DNA from: Alphaproteobacteria bacterium
Lineage (GTDB): Bacteria > Pseudomonadota > Alphaproteobacteria > Rs-D84
DNA length: 22,005 nt
Direction of reading: 5' to 3'
NCBI GenBank assembly: GCA_009782725.1
Contig: WRIM01000001.1
Location: forward strand, 1 to 22,005
The notes under the pieces are model-generated. The model was not told the origin of the DNA. It was given only the letters and a program-made list of their open reading frames with translations, and searched no databases. The position numbers were made by a program, and so were the translations under genes. Of the stretch, positions 878-6,859 are shown in pieces (position 1 is the stretch's first letter; every line of letters begins with the position of its first letter).

Positions 878-2611
878 TCTCAAAACCACCATTATCCCGG
901 CGGGTGTAATTCCCGGTATGCGCGACAGGGATGCGATGTTTTCCGGACGCGTTCTATGCAACTTTTCACGCAGTTCATTTGTAAGTCCCGATAACGAAAA
1001 ATAGTCGAAATCGCCGGGAATTTTGATATTTTGGTCTTTTTTATAGCTTTCTATTTCACGCATTTGGCGCGCGATATATCCCGCATAAAGCTTATCGTTT
1101 TCATTGCTGATTGCTGATTGTTGATTGCTGATTTTTTCAAATTGTTCGCGTGTAATTAAACCCAATTCAACCGCAATCGTCCCAAGCCGGAAAATCGCAT
1201 TGTCGCAACGAATGGACAATCTGTATTCCGCGCGGGATGTAAACATCCGATAGGGCTCATCCACGCCCAATGTCGTGATATCATCGATTAATACGCCAAT
1301 CATAGAATTCGTGCGGTCTAGTTTTAATTCGTGATAAGTGACAGGTGATAAGTGACAAGTATCTGAATTTCCTGTCACCTGTAACCTATCACCTATCACA
1401 GCCGCGTAAGCGGCGGCATTCGCGCCTGCGACCAGTCCCTGCGACGCGGCTTCTTCATATCCGCTTGTCCCATTTATTTGCCCGGCAAAAAATATGCCCG
1501 GAATATCTTTGGATTCAAGCGTGGATTTAAGAACTCGCGCATCAATCGCATCGTATTCAATCGCATATCCGTATCGCGCAACCCGCACATTCTCTAGTCC
1601 CGGAATGGTTCGCAAGAATTTATCCTGAACCGCGGCGGACATAGATGTCGACAATCCGTTCGGGTAAATCAAATCGCTGTTCAGCCCTTCGGGCTCTAAA
1701 AATACATGATGCGATAAATGCTCTGGGAAGCGCATTACTTTGTCTTCCAAGCTTGGACAATAACGCGGGCCGATACCGACAATCTCACCGTTATACATCG
1801 GCGCATCATGAATATTGTCACGAATGACATCATGCGTTTCTTCTGTCGTTCTTGTTATATAACAATTTGAACTTTGAACTTTGAACTTTGAACATTCGGT
1901 TGAAAACCAAGGATGATTTTCATCGCCGGGTTGGGGTTCAAGATTTGTAAAATCAATGCTGTCCCGATAAAGGCGCGCGGGCGTCCCGGTTTTAAGCCGA
2001 ATTAATGAAAAGCCGGCCTTTTTGAGTGTTTTTGATATATTAACATCCGGTTCTTGGTATGTTCCGTCGTCTGTCAGCCGACCCGACTTAATCTTTTCCG
2101 ACCCACGATGACAAAGCCCGCCCAGAAATGTCCCCGTGGTAATAACAATCGCCCGCGCCGCATATTTTCCATTTACAATTTTATTTTCTAAATCAAGAGT
2201 TTCAATAGATTCGTAAATAACTTCAAGCAAGGGCAATCTAAATTCCCCTTCCCTAGTCAGGGAAGGGGAATTTAGACCGAGCAGATTTTTCACGGCCGCG
2301 CGGTAAAGCGTGCGGTCGATTTGCGCGCGAAGCGCCCTTGTCGCCGGGCCATGCGACGCATTCAATGTACGAAAATGAATACCGGCCATGTCCGCAGCAA
2401 CCGGCATTATACCGCCCAGCGCATCGATTTCAGAAACCAATTGGGACTTTCCCGGCCCGCCGATGCTTGGATTGCATGACATAGCACCGATATCCATTTC
2501 AGATTTTGTAAAAAGCGCGACCGACGCGCCCCGACGCGCAGCGGCAGCTGCAGCCTCGACCCCCGCATGTCCCGCCCCTATAACAATAACATCGAATTGC
2601 TGATTTTTCAT
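842..2611 (-). CDS. mnmG: tRNA uridine-5-carboxymethylaminomethyl modification enzyme MnmG (GidA)
   Basis: MnmG works with MnmE to install the (carboxymethyl)aminomethyl group at C5 of the wobble uridine of certain tRNAs, using FAD. The 589-residue protein has the FAD loop GAGHAG at 12-17, the conserved MSCNPSIGG at 44-52, GTGTPARL-type and GPRYCPSLEDKVMRF motifs, GLVAGANAAAYA, EPYRMFTSRAEYRL, and the C-terminal YAGYIARQ and SRIPGITPAGI segments. It starts at ATG 2611 with AGGTAG just upstream, 4 nt after the stop of the preceding gene. The coding sequence is studded with repeat-derived peptides: about residues 112-125 (palindrome), 240-249, 405-427 and 494-503 (heptamer arrays), and the last ten residues from the 777-877 element. 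The linker before YAGYIARQ is much shorter than in E. coli. The reading frame is intact and the family motifs are present, so it is probably functional. Confidence 0.97.
   Translation of the reverse strand: MKNQQFDVIVIGAGHAGVEAAAAAARRGASVALFTKSEMDIGAMSCNPSIGGPGKSQLVSEIDALGGIMPVAADMAGIHFRTLNASHGPATRALRAQIDRTLYRAAVKNLLGLNSPSLTREGEFRLPLLEVIYESIETLDLENKIVNGKYAARAIVITTGTFLGGLCHRGSEKIKSGRLTDDGTYQEPDVNISKTLKKAGFSLIRLKTGTPARLYRDSIDFTNLEPQPGDENHPWFSTECSKFKVQSSNCYITRTTEETHDVIRDNIHDAPMYNGEIVGIGPRYCPSLEDKVMRFPEHLSHHVFLEPEGLNSDLIYPNGLSTSMSAAVQDKFLRTIPGLENVRVARYGYAIEYDAIDARVLKSTLESKDIPGIFFAGQINGTSGYEEAASQGLVAGANAAAYAAVIGDRLQVTGNSDTCHLSPVTYHELKLDRTNSMIGVLIDDITTLGVDEPYRMFTSRAEYRLSIRCDNAIFRLGTIAVELGLITREQFEKISNQQSAISNENDKLYAGYIARQMREIESYKKDQNIKIPGDFDYFSLSGLTNELREKLHRTRPENIASLSRIPGITPAGIMVVLRRVRDKESKRVT
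1103..1130. repeat. Heptamer array (ATTGCTG x4) inside mnmG
   Basis: Four heptamers, ATTGCTG, ATTGCTG, ATTGTTG and ATTGCTG. On the coding strand they give the peptide ISNQQSAISNEN at about residues 494-503 of MnmG. This is where E. coli MnmG has a long linker before the C-terminal domain. Confidence 0.9.
1331..1399. repeat. 69-bp element with inverted heptamer arrays, in frame in mnmG
   Basis: The left arm is GTGATAA, GTGACAG, GTGATAA, GTGACAA (1331-1358). The right arm is the inverted family CTGTCAC, CTGTAAC, CTATCAC, CTATCAC (1372-1399), with a 13-nt centre. Total length is 69 bp, exactly 23 codons. It falls between the conserved GANAAAYA and NSMIGVLIDD segments of MnmG and adds about residues 405-427. 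Confidence 0.9.
1866..1893. repeat. Heptamer array (TTTGAAC x4) inside mnmG
   Basis: Four perfect copies of TTTGAAC. On the coding strand they encode the SKFKVQSSN stretch just before CYITRTTEETHDVIR, at about residues 240-249. Confidence 0.92.
2164..2184. repeat. Degenerate heptamer array (ATTTTCC-like x3) inside mnmG
   Basis: ATTTTCC, ATTTACA and ATTTTAT in succession, similar to the units of the pheT array at 10017-10058. They encode ENKIVNGK, which resembles the ENGKLKIENGK-type peptide of that array. The divergence makes this weaker than the others. Confidence 0.4.
2237..2276. repeat. Perfect 18-bp-stem palindrome inside mnmG
   Basis: Left arm 2237-2254 and right arm 2259-2276 are exact reverse complements around the loop AGTC. 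It reads in frame through MnmG as LNSPSLTREGEFRL at about residues 112-125, between AVKNLL and LPLLEVIYESI. An in-frame palindrome of this kind recalls the Rickettsia palindromic elements in type, but I see no sequence relation to them. Confidence 0.92.
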
Positions 2612-2615
2612 AAAG

Positions 2616-3092
2616 CTACCTGACTATTTCCAACAATTGTTCTCTTAATTCTTGTTCAATATCCGTGTTCCAAATTCGTGATAATTTTAAAAACTTATTA
2701 TACCAACCGACCGCGAAATCATACCCGCAATTCGATTTGCCAACCATTGGAAAATCAAGCGAGCATATCTTTATTATACTTTTTTCGGTTTTTCTGTAAA
2801 ATTCTATACGCACGATGTCCGAGTATCTGAACCAATTGTATTTCGGACTGGTGGAACTATTATCCTCGGTGGCATACCAATTGAAACTGCTGTTTCTTCT
2901 TAGATATCCGGGCATAGATTCAAGTTTATTATAGACAAGCTGAAGACCTTCTTGCATTAATTCTTGATTCTTTTCAAGTTGTGCCTGTCTTTCTTCGAAT
3001 TTTTGCAGAATTGCGGTATTGCCGCGTCCGCGGCGGCGGCGTTCGTTTCCCCGCGTCTGTTGCCGATAGTCCATTTCGACGATGTCATCCAT
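2616..3092 (-). CDS. Unknown protein with central coiled coil, upstream of mnmG
   Basis: A 158-residue protein I do not recognise. The N-terminus is charged and arginine-rich (NERRRRGRGN). A short predicted coiled coil follows (KFEERQAQLEKNQELMQEGLQLVYNKL), and the C-terminal half is rich in aromatic residues (FNWYATED, YNWFRYSDIVRIEFYRK, VGWYNKFLKLSRIW). No signal peptide or membrane segment is seen. The frame is open to 3191, but I chose ATG 3092 because AAAGGG lies about 6 nt upstream and a promoter-like pair (TTGAAA, 16 nt, TATATT) at 3122-3149 would start the transcript downstream of the longer starts. It ends 4 nt before mnmG and is probably co-transcribed with it. Its 5' region overlaps the divergent promoter of the ileS operon. 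Confidence 0.7.
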   Translation of the reverse strand: MDDIVEMDYRQQTRGNERRRRGRGNTAILQKFEERQAQLEKNQELMQEGLQLVYNKLESMPGYLRRNSSFNWYATEDNSSTSPKYNWFRYSDIVRIEFYRKTEKSIIKICSLDFPMVGKSNCGYDFAVGWYNKFLKLSRIWNTDIEQELREQLLEIVR

Positions 3093-3121
3093 TTTATGCC
3101 CTTTTGTCGCCTCCACCGGCG

Positions 3122-3149
3122 AATATATCATACTTGACTTTGATTTCAA
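3122..3149 (-). promoter_or_regulatory. Sigma-70-like promoter for the unknown gene and mnmG
   Basis: On the minus strand, TTGAAA (3149-3144), a 16-nt spacer and TATATT (3127-3122). It lies about 30 nt before ATG 3092 and overlaps the opposing promoter at 3134-3161. Confidence 0.55.
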
Positions 3150-3161
3150 GTCGTTTATAAT
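3134..3161 (+). promoter_or_regulatory. Strong sigma-70-like promoter of the leader-kinase-ileS operon
   Basis: TTGACT (3134-3139), a 16-nt spacer, TATAAT (3156-3161). The expected start of transcription is about 3168-3169, at the ATG of the Ile-rich leader ORF, so that ORF would be translated from a leaderless 5' end. Confidence 0.75.
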
Positions 3162-3168
3162 AACGGCC

Positions 3169-3201
3169 ATGTTCACGAAAACAATAATCATTATAGAATA
3201 A
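3169..3201 (+). CDS. Isoleucine-rich leader peptide of the ileS operon (MFTKTIIIIE)
   Basis: A 10-codon ORF, ATG at 3169-3171 and TAA at 3199-3201, with four consecutive isoleucine codons ATA-ATC-ATT-ATA at 3184-3195. It sits 7 nt after a consensus -10 box, so the transcript probably begins at or next to its ATG; no Shine-Dalgarno site is present. It is followed at once by two hairpins, the second with a T7 tract, and then by the operon that contains isoleucyl-tRNA synthetase. In classical amino-acid attenuation, leader peptides rich in the regulated amino acid sense its charged tRNA by ribosome stalling. The match of codon identity to the regulated gene is the main argument that this short ORF is real; it has not been seen expressed. 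Confidence 0.7.
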   Translation: MFTKTIIIIE

Positions 3202-3252
3202 CTGGCAAACGCGCTTTGCAGTTATTTGCGGCGCGTAAAGCGCCATTTTTTT
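3200..3252 (+). promoter_or_regulatory. Transcription attenuator: pause hairpin, antiterminator and terminator
   Basis: Hairpin 1 pairs AACT (3200-3203) plus GCAAA (3205-3209) with TTTGC (3215-3219) plus AGTT (3220-3223), with one bulged G. The terminator hairpin is GGCGC (3230-3234), loop GTAAA, GCGCC (3240-3244), then A and seven T (3246-3252). An alternative pairing joins ACGCGC (3209-3214) to GCGCGT (3231-3236) and would exclude the terminator. A ribosome stalled on the Ile codons would cover the 5' arm of hairpin 1 and leave 3209-3214 free, giving antitermination. A ribosome that reaches the stop codon would cover 3209-3214 and let the terminator form. The mechanism is inferred from the sequence. 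Confidence 0.68.
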
Positions 3253-3269
3253 GTGACAAAGGACAAATT

Positions 3270-3830
3270 ATGAAAACCAACCAAGTCGTTTTAATCTACG
3301 GCTTTCCCGCAACCGGCAAGTATACCATGGCCAAGAAATTGGAAGAGGGCGGCGCCAAATTGCTGGACAACCATTATTTTCATGATTTCGTGCGGCCTTT
3401 TATCAAAGCGGCCGATGATGAGAAAGTGGAATATTTTGAAAAAATGTCCAAATTGCGGGGCGCATTTTTCGATATGATTCGGAAATTCTATCCGAAAGAC
3501 CGGCTTGTCAGATATGTTTTTACAAGCATATTGGTCCAGGGCGATGAAGCCGAGTTAAAAAACCTGACAAGCTTGGCCGAAGATATAAACGGCGAATTCA
3601 TACCGATAGAATTAATCGCAAATCCGGATGTTTTAAAGCAAAGATGCCAAACCGAATATCGACGCGGACGGGGAAAACTGTCCGATCCGGGCAAATTAGA
3701 GAAATTATTTGAACGCTACGTTCACATGGATGTCGAACACCCGAACAAACTTACAATCGATGTATCGGATTTGACCGAAGAAGAAACATTTCAAAGAATC
3801 GAAAAACATTTAGCAAAGGTCTCAAAATGA
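3270..3830 (+). CDS. P-loop NTP-binding protein, probable small-molecule or nucleotide kinase
   Basis: A 186-residue P-loop protein with a Walker A motif GFPATGKYT at 11-19 preceded by a hydrophobic strand (VVLIY). An NHYFHDFVRPF segment follows where related AAA-type kinases have an NH-containing substrate loop, and a basic RRGRGKL stretch near residue 135 may form a lid. The fold suggests phosphoryl transfer from ATP in the cytoplasm; the substrate is unknown. The frame is open from 3216, but ATG 3270 is chosen because AAAGGA lies about 6 nt upstream and the attenuator ends just before it. It overlaps ileS by ATGA (3827-3830), so translation is probably coupled, and the gene is the first after the Ile-responsive leader. 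That context hints at a role near tRNA or amino-acid metabolism but proves nothing. Confidence 0.75.
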   Translation: MKTNQVVLIYGFPATGKYTMAKKLEEGGAKLLDNHYFHDFVRPFIKAADDEKVEYFEKMSKLRGAFFDMIRKFYPKDRLVRYVFTSILVQGDEAELKNLTSLAEDINGEFIPIELIANPDVLKQRCQTEYRRGRGKLSDPGKLEKLFERYVHMDVEHPNKLTIDVSDLTEEETFQRIEKHLAKVSK

Positions 3831-6800
3831 CATACCCAAAGACAGAAGCGCGCGCGAATTTTCCAGAATTAGAGCATTCGGTTTTAAAATTCTGGCGCGA
3901 GAACAGCACATTTCAGAAAACAATGGAAAAAACCCGCGACGGCGTGCCGTTTACATTCTTTGACGGGCCGCCTTTTGCAAATGGAATTCCGCATTGGGGC
4001 CATGTCGGCGTATCTGCGATGAAGGATATGGTCTTTCGCTTTCAAACCATGCGCGGCAGGCACGTATTGCGCGAATTGGGCTGGGACTGTCACGGTCTTC
4101 CGGCGGAACAATCGGTTGAAAAATCGACCGGAAAATTGGCCAAGGATATCGTGGCGGGGCAGGGCATCGATGCATTCTGTGAAATGTGCCGCGTCGACGT
4201 TTTAAAATATACCGACGTTTTCGAACGGGTTTATGAACGCGAAGGACGCTGGTTCGAATCCGCGCCCGAATTCGGATACGCCACAATGGATAAAGACTTT
4301 ATGGAATCCGTAATATGGGCGATGAAGCAATTATATGACAAAGGTTTGTTATACAAAGACTTCCGCGTGAATCCTTTCGATTGGAAATTGGGCACAGCGT
4401 TAAGTAATTCCGAGGCAAGCCAAGAATACATGGACGTTGTCGACGATGCGATAACCGTATGGTTCGAATTGGCCGACGGTCGGCGCGTTTTGGCATGGAC
4501 GACCACGCCTTGGACTTTGCCTGCGAATAGCGCATTGGCCGTAAATCCGAAATTAACATACGCGGTTATGAGGGACGCGGACGGCGCGGAATATATAATT
4601 GCCGAATCACGCCTTAAATCATATGAAAAACAATTCGCAAATACGGAACGCATCGGAAGCGTCGCGGGCGCGGATTTGGTTGGATTAAAATACAAACCTT
4701 TGTTCGATTATTACAATGATGAAAAATTATATCATGTAATCGCGGGCGAATTCGTGTCCGATTCCGACGGCACGGGCGTTGTGCATATCGCGCCTGCATT
4801 CGGGGACGAAGACTTTTGGGCATTGAAAAATATCGACCCGAAATTCCCGGTCATTTTGAACGTCAGCGAATATGGCAATTTTACGGATGAAGTCACGGAT
4901 TTCGCCGGCATGAATATATTCGACGCGAATCCGAAAATCATAGAATTTCTGAAAAAAGCCGGACGTCTTGTAAAAAAAGAATCATACAAACACTCGTACC
5001 CGTTCAGCTATCGCACTCATGAAAAGTTAATTTATCGCGCGGCGGAAAGCTGGTACATCGATGTGCCAGCCTTGCGCGACCGTTTAATCGAAAACACGAA
5101 AAAGACAGATTGGAAATCCGCAGGCGAAAGATTTATGAAATGGATAGAGGGCGCGCGACCATGGTCTGTATCTCGCAATCGATTCTGGGGAACACCATTG
5201 CCGATTTGGGAACGCAACGGGGAATTCAAAGTATTCGGAAGCGTCGCGGAATTGGAAGAATTTTTCGGCACCAAAATCGACGACCTTCACCGGCCGACAT
5301 TGGACGCGTTGGAAAAAGACGGTTGGAAGCGTATTCCGGATGTTTTGGATTGCTGGGTTGAATCCGGCTCTATGCCGTTCGCGCAAATGCATTATCCGTT
5401 TGAAAACAAAGAAAGATTTGAACGTGAATTCCCTGCGGACTATATAATAGAGGGTCCCGACCAAACACGCGGGTGGTTTTATTCGTTAATGGTAATGGCC
5501 ACCGCATTGTTTGACAAGCCTGCATTCAAAACGGTTTCGGTCAATGGATTGATATTGGACGACCAACGTCGCAAGATGTCAAAGTCATTGGGCAATTACG
5601 ACGACCCAATGAATTTAATGGAGAAATACGGCGCGGATGCCGTGCGTTTGTACATCCTTGGCGGGAACTTTATGAAATGCGAACCGATTGTTTTGGACAA
5701 AGAAGGCAAGGTATTTAACGAACCAACTAAAAACATATTGGTGCCGTTGTGGAACGCGTATCACTTCTTCACGCTTTATGCGAACGCAGGCGCGCTTCGC
5801 GCGAATGAACAATTAACAATTAACAATGAACAGTTAAATGTTCTGGACCAATACATATTGGCGGAATTGGATGAATTGATTGGCGTGACTGGCAGGGCGC
5901 TTGACGATTATGCGCCTGATTTGGCGATTCGTGAATTTGTGCGATTCTTAGAGGTTCTTAACAACTGGTACATTCGTCGTTCACGCGAACGGTTTTGGGA
6001 TGAAGAACAAGCCGCGTTCGATACGCTGTACTTTGTGCTTGTCGAGTTCTGCAAACTGCTTGCGCCATTCGCGCCGTTTATTGCTGAATTTATATACCGC
6101 AACCTGACCGGCGCTGAATCCGTGCATTTGGAAGATTTTCCTGAGCATAAGAACAAACACAATGAATACAATATTCTAGATTCAATGCGTGAAGTTATGG
6201 CCGTTGTTTCTGTTGGAAAACAACTACGCGAGAAATACGGTCTTCGGAACCGCCTGCCGCTTAATAAAATTAGTGTCATTGGTTCCGTATTCGGTTCAAT
6301 GAAATACAACAATATAATTATGGATGAGTTAAATGTTAAAAATATTTCAGTTGAGCTGAATCAAGATATTTCATCCGTTGCCGATTCGTTCATATACCTT
6401 ATCACGCCGAAAATCGGCGCGCGTTTGGGTGCAAAATTAAAAGATATCATGGCCGCATCTAAACAGACGGATTTTAATCCTGTTGATTGGGGCCTTAATC
6501 CAGACGAATATGAAATGCGCCTTACCGTCAAACCCGGAATCACGGGCGCCGCATTGCCGGATAATACCGCCGTTGTGGTGTTGGACACGAACGTGACAAA
6601 GGAATTGGCGGACGAAGGGCTTGCCCGCGATGCGTTGAGATTTATCCAAGATACGCGGCGCGATATGGATTTAAACGTATCCGACCGGATTGTTTTGGAA
6701 TATTCCGCGGATTCAGATTTGGAGTTTGCAATCAACGCGCATGCTGATATGATAAAGGAAAACGCATTGATTGTCGAATTACGCCCGACCGCGGGCGCCG

Positions 6801-6859
6801 CCGATTTCACAACAGAAATCGAAGGCCGCAAATTCGGAATAAAAATAACAAAAGCATAA
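3827..6859 (+). CDS. ileS: Isoleucyl-tRNA synthetase, type 2 (eukaryote-like)
   Basis: IleRS charges tRNA-Ile with isoleucine and edits misactivated valine. The 1010-residue protein has the class I signature HWGH at 56-59 within PPFANGIPHWGH, then WDCHGLPAE, an editing domain with AWTTTPWTLPANSALAV and GTGVVHIAPAFGDEDF, the WYIDV and NRFWGTPLPIW segments, and KMSKS at 583-587 (RRKMSKSLGNYDDP). The anticodon-binding domain with NNWYIRRSRERFW follows. No C-terminal Cys4 zinc ribbon is present. Length and motif wording fit the type 2, eukaryote-like group, members of which are often resistant to mupirocin. A repeat-derived peptide (about residues 655-671, ALRANEQLTINNEQLN) is inserted just before the anticodon-binding domain. 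The gene overlaps the kinase upstream and is followed 11 nt later by the PNPOx-like gene; control is probably through the leader at 3169-3252. Confidence 0.97.
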   Translation: MTYPKTEARANFPELEHSVLKFWRENSTFQKTMEKTRDGVPFTFFDGPPFANGIPHWGHVGVSAMKDMVFRFQTMRGRHVLRELGWDCHGLPAEQSVEKSTGKLAKDIVAGQGIDAFCEMCRVDVLKYTDVFERVYEREGRWFESAPEFGYATMDKDFMESVIWAMKQLYDKGLLYKDFRVNPFDWKLGTALSNSEASQEYMDVVDDAITVWFELADGRRVLAWTTTPWTLPANSALAVNPKLTYAVMRDADGAEYIIAESRLKSYEKQFANTERIGSVAGADLVGLKYKPLFDYYNDEKLYHVIAGEFVSDSDGTGVVHIAPAFGDEDFWALKNIDPKFPVILNVSEYGNFTDEVTDFAGMNIFDANPKIIEFLKKAGRLVKKESYKHSYPFSYRTHEKLIYRAAESWYIDVPALRDRLIENTKKTDWKSAGERFMKWIEGARPWSVSRNRFWGTPLPIWERNGEFKVFGSVAELEEFFGTKIDDLHRPTLDALEKDGWKRIPDVLDCWVESGSMPFAQMHYPFENKERFEREFPADYIIEGPDQTRGWFYSLMVMATALFDKPAFKTVSVNGLILDDQRRKMSKSLGNYDDPMNLMEKYGADAVRLYILGGNFMKCEPIVLDKEGKVFNEPTKNILVPLWNAYHFFTLYANAGALRANEQLTINNEQLNVLDQYILAELDELIGVTGRALDDYAPDLAIREFVRFLEVLNNWYIRRSRERFWDEEQAAFDTLYFVLVEFCKLLAPFAPFIAEFIYRNLTGAESVHLEDFPEHKNKHNEYNILDSMREVMAVVSVGKQLREKYGLRNRLPLNKISVIGSVFGSMKYNNIIMDELNVKNISVELNQDISSVADSFIYLITPKIGARLGAKLKDIMAASKQTDFNPVDWGLNPDEYEMRLTVKPGITGAALPDNTAVVVLDTNVTKELADEGLARDALRFIQDTRRDMDLNVSDRIVLEYSADSDLEFAINAHADMIKENALIVELRPTAGAADFTTEIEGRKFGIKITKA
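5808..5835. repeat. Heptamer array (AACAATT-like x4) in ileS, with GC mini-hairpin upstream
   Basis: AACAATT, AACAATT, AACAATG, AACAGTT, giving NEQLTINNEQLN. A CGCGC-TTC-GCGCG hairpin lies at 5791-5803 just before it and encodes GALRA. Both read in frame, at about IleS residues 655-671. Confidence 0.9.

Follow-up and report, generated by a model that had tools for sequence, protein, structure and literature searches.

Leader-peptide attenuation is known mainly from amino acid biosynthesis operons, and the trp, his, and ilv operons of enteric bacteria, together with pheST of Escherichia coli, are classical ribosome-mediated attenuators. Like these enteric systems, the ileS locus analyzed here combines a short open reading frame (ORF) rich in cognate codons with an antiterminator and an intrinsic terminator that would be mutually exclusive and that precede the target gene, and on sequence comparison we read its mechanism as classical ribosome-mediated attenuation. 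It differs from them in that its target is ileS, its ORF has about 10 codons with the Ile run placed one codon before the stop, and the leader in the stretch under study is probably without a 5′ untranslated region. Attenuation of his is described in PMC9413887.

The small CDSs that ribosome profiling mapped in Caulobacter crescentus include one named as an ileS leader CDS (CCNA_03934) and one named as a trpS leader CDS (PMC4117421). Like our locus, this alphaproteobacterium thus has a small CDS named as the leader of ileS, although we have neither sequence nor mechanism from that source to compare (PMC4117421). It overtakes the original prediction, which knew of no described Ile leader for ileS of this form, since an “ileS leader CDS” was already in print. 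In S. meliloti, the RNA rnTrpL is described as beginning with the ATG of trpL, that is, with a leaderless leader ORF (PMC7298713). This alphaproteobacterial leader resembles ours in sitting on an RNA that starts at its ATG (a probable start in our case) and is unlike it in its amino acid (Trp), its biosynthetic target, and the trans role reported there (PMC7298713). In Streptomyces, candidate attenuators of trpS and leuS have been put forward, and the actinobacterial ileS T-box is said in the same source to act on translation (PMC1262725); the cognate leader peptides before synthetase genes are shared with our locus, whereas the phylum is another one and ileS is under T-box control there (PMC1262725).

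Here, attenuation appears to be attached to the synthetase genes of small genomes, and at least five synthetases in one family seem to use it. Among the papers listed, our literature search did not find such a family-wide set of five synthetase leaders; the study by Lopatovskaya and co-workers, which reportedly deals with attenuation of amino acid and aminoacyl-tRNA genes, could hold related cases.

Leader, terminator, and operon in the window

The window, that is, the whole stretch of 22,005 nucleotides that was analyzed, carries the following features at and around the leader:

3134..3161, + strand: sigma-70-like promoter TTGACT-16-TATAAT (consensus match only), with the −35 element TTGACT at 3134-3139, the −10 element TATAAT at 3156-3161, and a 16-nt spacer, as read from the sequence
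3169..3201, + strand: putative leader ORF MFTKTIIIIE-stop, 10 codons, with ATG at 3169-3171 and stop codon TAA at 3199-3201 (sequence; kept in relatives)
3184..3195, + strand: four consecutive Ile codons (ATA ATC ATT ATA), proposed as the site of sensing
3196..3227, + strand: first hairpin, predicted to sequester the antiterminator strand and holding the stop codon (fold; the related consensus helix is 80.1% paired)
3209..3217, + strand: putative 5′ strand of the antiterminator, ACGCGCUUU, whose ACGCGC can pair with 3231-3236 (in 86 leaders, 94.9% of cells are paired)
3230..3252, + strand: putative intrinsic terminator, stem 3230-3244 and T-run 3246-3252 (96.7% of cells paired)
3258..3263, + strand: Shine-Dalgarno-like AAAGGA of the first operon gene (by eye)
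3270..3830, + strand: gene for a small P-loop kinase-like protein, 186 amino acids, ATG at 3270, between the leader and ileS (sequence, profile search)
3827..6859, + strand: ileS, isoleucyl-tRNA synthetase, 1,010 amino acids, its start overlapped by the kinase-like gene (profile searches)

On reading the sequence, the promoter, the ATG, MFTKTIIIIE with its Ile codons and stop, and the terminator with T7 all lie where they had been predicted, and ACGCGC at 3209-3214 is indeed complementary to GCGCGT at 3231-3236. The first hairpin is likewise present with the stop in its 5′ arm, which also contains the Glu codon; its extent is 3196-3227 and not, as proposed, 3200-3223. The terminator stem has five G-C pairs and a loop of 5, followed by an A and then T7, and its 5′ arm is common to the antiterminator. 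Positions 3169-3270 fold at −27.0, compared with −18.8 (SD, 2.8) for shuffled sequences (z, −2.9; 1 of 200 shuffles as low). The promoter, which scores 11 out of 12, is the joint best among 10 promoter-like sites in 2600-3900, an interval in which shuffles have 3.3 sites. From these elements and the comparisons below, we conclude that the locus is very probably a ribosome-mediated transcription attenuator that tunes ileS expression to how much charged tRNA-Ile is available.

Because the leader ATG lies 7 nt downstream of TATAAT, transcription in the window probably starts at the ATG itself, which would make the ORF leaderless. No Shine-Dalgarno sequence is visible before this ATG, so that translation, too, would probably begin at the 5′ terminus of the transcript. 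Of the 92 distinct leaders compared, 27 stand behind a tRNA-like 3′ end (judged by the T-arm pattern). Among the other 65, the ATG lies 6 to 9 nt past the best −10 match in 20, and 7 have no such match. A Shine-Dalgarno-like sequence precedes 8 of the 92 leader starts, compared with 87 of 94 ileS starts searched for the same motifs over the same distance. A divergent minus-strand ORF at 2616-3191, without a Pfam or NCBIfam match, overlaps the leader in its longest reading; an internal start at 3092 seems more likely.

A T-box riboswitch reading tRNA-Ile directly would serve the same end, and ileS T-boxes are known in Actinobacteria, as PMC1262725 reports. The leader RNA, however, measures only some 100 nt, and neither a T-box nor any other known RNA family has an Rfam match at cut-off in the window; at an E value of ≤5, positions 3100-3290 gave one weak small-RNA match on the opposite strand and no T-box. 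The probability that we leave to this explanation is close to nil.

The assignment of ileS is firm in the profile searches (TIGR00392 at 754 bits against a cut-off of 621; Pfam tRNA-synt_1 and Anticodon_1). The product of 3270-3830 gave a weak match to a shikimate kinase model (E value, 0.0011; 19 bits against a cut-off of 204) and none among solved structures. Homologs of this protein at an E value of ≤0.001 were found in only 8 of the 80 genomes searched, the window's own included. In a relative of the same genus (G001), the leader MATKTIIIIE stands directly before ileS and the kinase gene is absent from that place, the two homologs of this genome lying on other contigs. Since the leader adjoins ileS there, the kinase gene in the window gives the impression of having been inserted into the unit under regulation, and the regulatory target is likely ileS. 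Regulation meant for the kinase is unlikely, given the same relative and the rarity of the gene. At two other loci (L039 and L048), several hundred bases separate the leader from the ileS that follows, and by eye another gene seems to occupy this interval.

Conservation of the leader and its Ile codons

How far an Ile run before a gene can be trusted was gauged in a relative, G035, in which a short upstream ORF with four Ile codons occurs at 6 of 745 genes (≥150 amino acids), ileS among them. One sequence alone therefore makes a weak to moderate case, and the original view that such a run would be an unlikely coincidence overstated the rarity of the run itself; conservation and four further cognate leaders have borne it out. 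It is because the leader is conserved in relatives that chance can be set aside. A chance ORF before an ordinary terminator, for which those six genes speak, has to face a leader in 165 of 183 family genomes, covariation, and own-amino-acid leaders at four more synthetase genes, and is very improbable indeed.

An ileS protein match was found in all 201 genomes of the order, several of them only weak or partial. We read the upstream DNA at 119 ileS loci (L011 to L129, the window included), and at 97 of them the terminator is preceded by a short ORF that closes with an Ile run; these 97 include L029 and L043, where the start is lost at a contig end and which were added by hand. The expected conservation of an Ile-rich ORF upstream of ileS is thus seen in related genomes. 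Of the 22 loci without the leader, 16 belong to other families of the order; these include L067 and L069, where ileS is partial and could not be judged, and L053, L055, L057, L059, L061, and L067, which were left out of the scan because their matches looked unrelated and are counted as misses. The remaining six are from the window's family: L041, L042, and L044 (genus g3; genomes G003, G021, and G015), L054 (G029), L097 (G144), and L015. At L015, a covariance model does detect the leader, at the extreme end of the contig; the other five genomes have ileS and lack the leader. In a longer stretch of G144 (L295), a tRNA and a plain terminator-like hairpin precede ileS and no Ile ORF is seen, a possible loss of the sensor.

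The covariance model (R1), which holds the sequence and six terminator pairs, matches 165 of the 201 genomes of the order. All 165 are among the 183 genomes of the window's family, and none of the 18 from the families f2 to f6 is matched, with 16 of the misses assigned to family by subtraction. In 9 of the 18 family misses, the ileS match is no better than an E value of 4.9e-149, so in those nine assemblies ileS is probably missing or broken. Relatives that keep the operon and lack the ORF had been named as evidence against the idea; a few family genomes do have ileS and lack the leader, which is kept at 97 of 119 loci and in 165 of 183 family genomes. In a class-wide draw, the model matches 4 of 385 genomes, all from the window's family and including the window's own. 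Among 30 other loci of the class (one of them, L441, with almost no upstream DNA), Ile-rich short ORFs upstream of ileS contain III in only 2, L435 being among the loci without it, and a further 40 loci gave a weaker Ile pattern in 3 and III in none. Upstream of ileS at L437, from another family of the class, we read MSDIRSISIIISIIIP; among the 70 class loci, only this one looks like what is perhaps an independent Ile leader.

The 92 distinct leaders keep the start, frame, and stop of the ORF, and their N-terminal codons are very variable. At least four Ile codons are present in 83, the consecutive cognate codons in a short upstream ORF that mark an attenuator, and three in the other 9; 83 have 10 codons and 91 start with ATG. 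The last residue varies (K in 59, R in 13, E in 8, G in 8, and others in 4). One genome (G016) has two ileS copies (L029 and L293), each with an Ile leader; that of L293, which is outside the 119 loci, reads MYQNIIIIIK, with five Ile codons, before the same type of hairpin. At L049, L050, L056, and L068, the ileS that follows this same leader is much more divergent (46 to 49% identity to that of the window), which looks like an exchange of the synthetase with the leader retained.

In counts that include related sequences many times over, the wobble base of the 82 distinct four-Ile leaders is A in 79 at Ile1 and T in 80 at Ile3, whereas at Ile2 it is T in 67, C in 14, and A in 1 and at Ile4 A in 40, T in 40, and C in 2. 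The wobble positions of Ile1 and Ile3 are conserved beyond coding need. Genes of G035 use ATA for 35%, ATT for 45%, and ATC for 20% of their Ile codons, and ARAGORN, run on 20-kb pieces of that genome, finds a single tRNA-Ile(GAT) along with three CAT-anticodon tRNAs, among which we see a possible AUA reader. The wobble pattern could serve the sensing of both Ile isoacceptors, or it could reflect a palindrome with another role; its conservation makes isoacceptor-specific sensing directly testable.

The palindrome deserves attention because the near-invariant wobble bases of Ile1 and Ile3, next to the variable ones of Ile2 and Ile4, would also suit a run that is not read as codons at all. ATAATnATTAT would then be a DNA or RNA palindrome, such as an operator or protein site, and attenuation would be constitutive or protein controlled. 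With the same repeated counting of related sequences, 79 of the 92 distinct leaders have both the palindrome and at least four Ile codons, 4 have the Ile codons only, none has the palindrome only, and 9 have neither. The four exceptions (L014, L050, L074, and L127) thus have four Ile codons and no palindrome, and the reverse is not seen in any leader. Moreover, the leader ORF holds its start, frame, and stop despite such variable N-terminal codons, and the leaders of thrS, cysS, serS, and hisS carry their own amino acid in unrelated sequence. We consider a palindrome acting in place of codons improbable.

Alternative pairings and the proposed switch

On sequence evidence, an intrinsic terminator lies between the ORF and the gene, and an antiterminator is present that would exclude it. 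Pairing was assessed in an alignment (A1) that spans Ile run to T-run and takes in 86 of the 97 leaders, the other 11 being repeats of the post-stop sequence. In the terminator (columns 59-64 with 71-76), 96.7% of cells are paired, compared with 37 to 69% in slid registers, and three pairs are changed on both sides, a number reached by 0 of 500 shuffles. In the antiterminator (columns 36-43 with 58-64), 94.9% of cells hold a standard pair, compared with 31 to 72% when slid; two pairs are changed on both sides (reached by 26 of 500 shuffles), and the covariation score of 0.083, which 1 of 500 shuffles attains, is equalled by the slide of +2. RNAalifold alone predicts only four terminator pairs.

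Compensatory changes, which had been called for in both hairpins, are found in the terminator and antiterminator, and they are joined by a change of three strands at once: at L115 and L116, strands 2, 3, and 4 go from GCGC/GCGC/GCGC to GCAC/GUGC/GCAC, keeping both alternative pairings. We regard this as the best single evidence for the predicted switch, and it may be one event, as the two genomes share a genus. For the first hairpin, the outcome is divided. In the consensus register, 80.1% of cells are paired and 20% unpaired, compared with 13 to 75% when slid (74.8% at the slide of +2), and 21 cells are changed on both sides, a count reached by 0 of 500 shuffles. Pairs with such two-sided changes, however, are no more numerous than in shuffled alignments (3 versus 3.5).

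We propose that the RNA would start at or beside the leader ATG and that a ribosome would read the 10-codon leader. When Ile-tRNA is ample, the ribosome would pass all four Ile codons and reach the stop; there, its leading edge would cover the 5′ side of ACGCGC. Alternatively, it would depart and let the first hairpin close. By either route, the terminator at 3230-3252 would form and transcription would end. When Ile-tRNA is short, the ribosome would stall on the Ile codons, the later ones being the most effective, and hold the first hairpin open; free ACGCGC could then pair with GCGCGU, which would block the terminator and allow the kinase-ileS operon to be transcribed. If this reading is true, the cell probably makes more IleRS when loaded tRNA-Ile runs short.

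Folding models bear on this scheme in several ways. For the full-length leader of the window, with the ribosome edge set 15 nt past the first P-site base (the sole edge tried), the terminator is predicted without a ribosome and with Ile1 or the stop in the A site, and the antiterminator with Ile2, Ile3, or Ile4 in the A site. For the 86 leaders, folded as RNA transcribed to the end of strand 3 with ribosome edges of 12, 15, and 17, the mean antiterminator probability is 0.57 without a ribosome and goes up to 0.95 with one at Ile4 (edge 15) and to 0.94 with one at Ile3 (edge 17). For a ribosome at the stop it is 0.96, 0.87, and 0.31 for edges 12, 15, and 17, and with edges 12 and 15 it exceeds the values at Ile1 to Ile3 (0.54 to 0.69). 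The modeled logic depends on the assumed ribosome edge, and only edge 17 yields the textbook contrast. As the 5′ arm of the consensus first hairpin begins after the stop, a ribosome at Ile1 or Ile2 would hardly disturb it. In full-length equilibrium folds, the terminator is preferred by most leaders in every state tested (57 to 82 of 86), and with the ribosome at Ile3 or Ile4 (edges 15 and 17) it still wins in 66 to 72 of 86; for this reason, the switch would have to be kinetic, which is plausible.

Cognate-codon leaders at other synthetase genes

When the joined G035 contig was searched for short ORFs that lie upstream of genes and contain residue runs, 129 were found; TTTTTT, the longest of these runs, stands before thrS. 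In this genome, the leaders read MNNICVFFTTTTTTPAGV before thrS, MTIRFIDFYCCCR before cysS, MKFVFLSLRHSSSPFGVRI before serS, MNIQNFIFFTLHHARWAGCL before hisS (these four gene identities are from Pfam), and MNNATIIIIR before ileS, five leaders picked out of 16 synthetase genes recognized by homology or N-terminal sequence, argS and glyS not being among the genes located. The background per 745 genes, these genes included, is 1 for T6, 4 for C3, 6 for S3, and 25 for H2, which makes the His case the weakest alone. A G-C hairpin is encoded in the ORF end of the thrS, serS, and hisS leaders, and the cysS hairpin has a weak T-run.

The same leaders recur in relatives. Thr codons (TTTTTTP[AL]GV type, counted as TTT, TT.T, or T.TT) precede thrS at 21 of 30 loci (L326 to L355, of which L346 is without upstream DNA), including the window's own genome, where the leader reads MKKLFVLLTTVTTPLGV (L343), G001 (L347), and one genome of another family (L350). 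Cys codons (FINFYCC(C)R type) precede cysS at 30 of the 43 loci that could be placed among the 50 given (L296 to L325 and L356 to L375), L307 and L361 being doubtful. Ser codons precede serS at 20 of 29 placed loci out of 30 given (L376 to L405), and His codons precede hisS at 15 of 25 placed loci out of 26 given (L406 to L431), L424 and L426 being doubtful.

With four more synthetase genes of the family carrying leaders for their own amino acid, codon sensing appears much more likely than coincidence. Together with conservation and covariation, these leaders support, by comparison, the predicted control of ileS by charged tRNA-Ile through ribosome stalling. A leader ORF could also work by another logic, such as re-initiation at the next gene, a peptide or RNA acting in trans (compare S. 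meliloti trpL), or a general sensing of translation, and rnTrpL is reported as a leaderless leader ORF with a trans role (PMC7298713). Such a logic would leave the Ile run, the conserved terminator and antiterminator, and the cognate residues at five synthetases unexplained, and we think it highly improbable.

Codon sensing may extend beyond ileS. We see an even chance that the family controls at least five synthetases (IleRS, ThrRS, CysRS, SerRS, and HisRS), each by a cognate leader peptide doing the job of Gram-positive T-boxes, and that the AUA-AUY-AUU order lets the ileS leader sense both Ile isoacceptors. Ile, Thr, Cys, Ser, and His would form a natural series for studying how a stalled ribosome brings about the choice to terminate, in what way leaderless leader ORFs function, and whether some lineages use leader peptides in place of T-boxes.

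In G035, no cognate leader was seen for valS, leuS, metG, tyrS, trpS, gltX, proS, alaS, aspS, lysS, or pheS; the Ala-containing short ORF at alaS was taken for part of another gene. By eye, pheS in the window has no Phe leader, and a Val run before a lon-like gene in G035 was rejected because it lies within the end of an apparent other coding frame. The cut-off hisS copy of the window's genome (L430) reads FYHARRGNCL, without HH. At several loci, the cysS leader lies directly behind a tRNA gene, which in G035 is tRNA-Ser.
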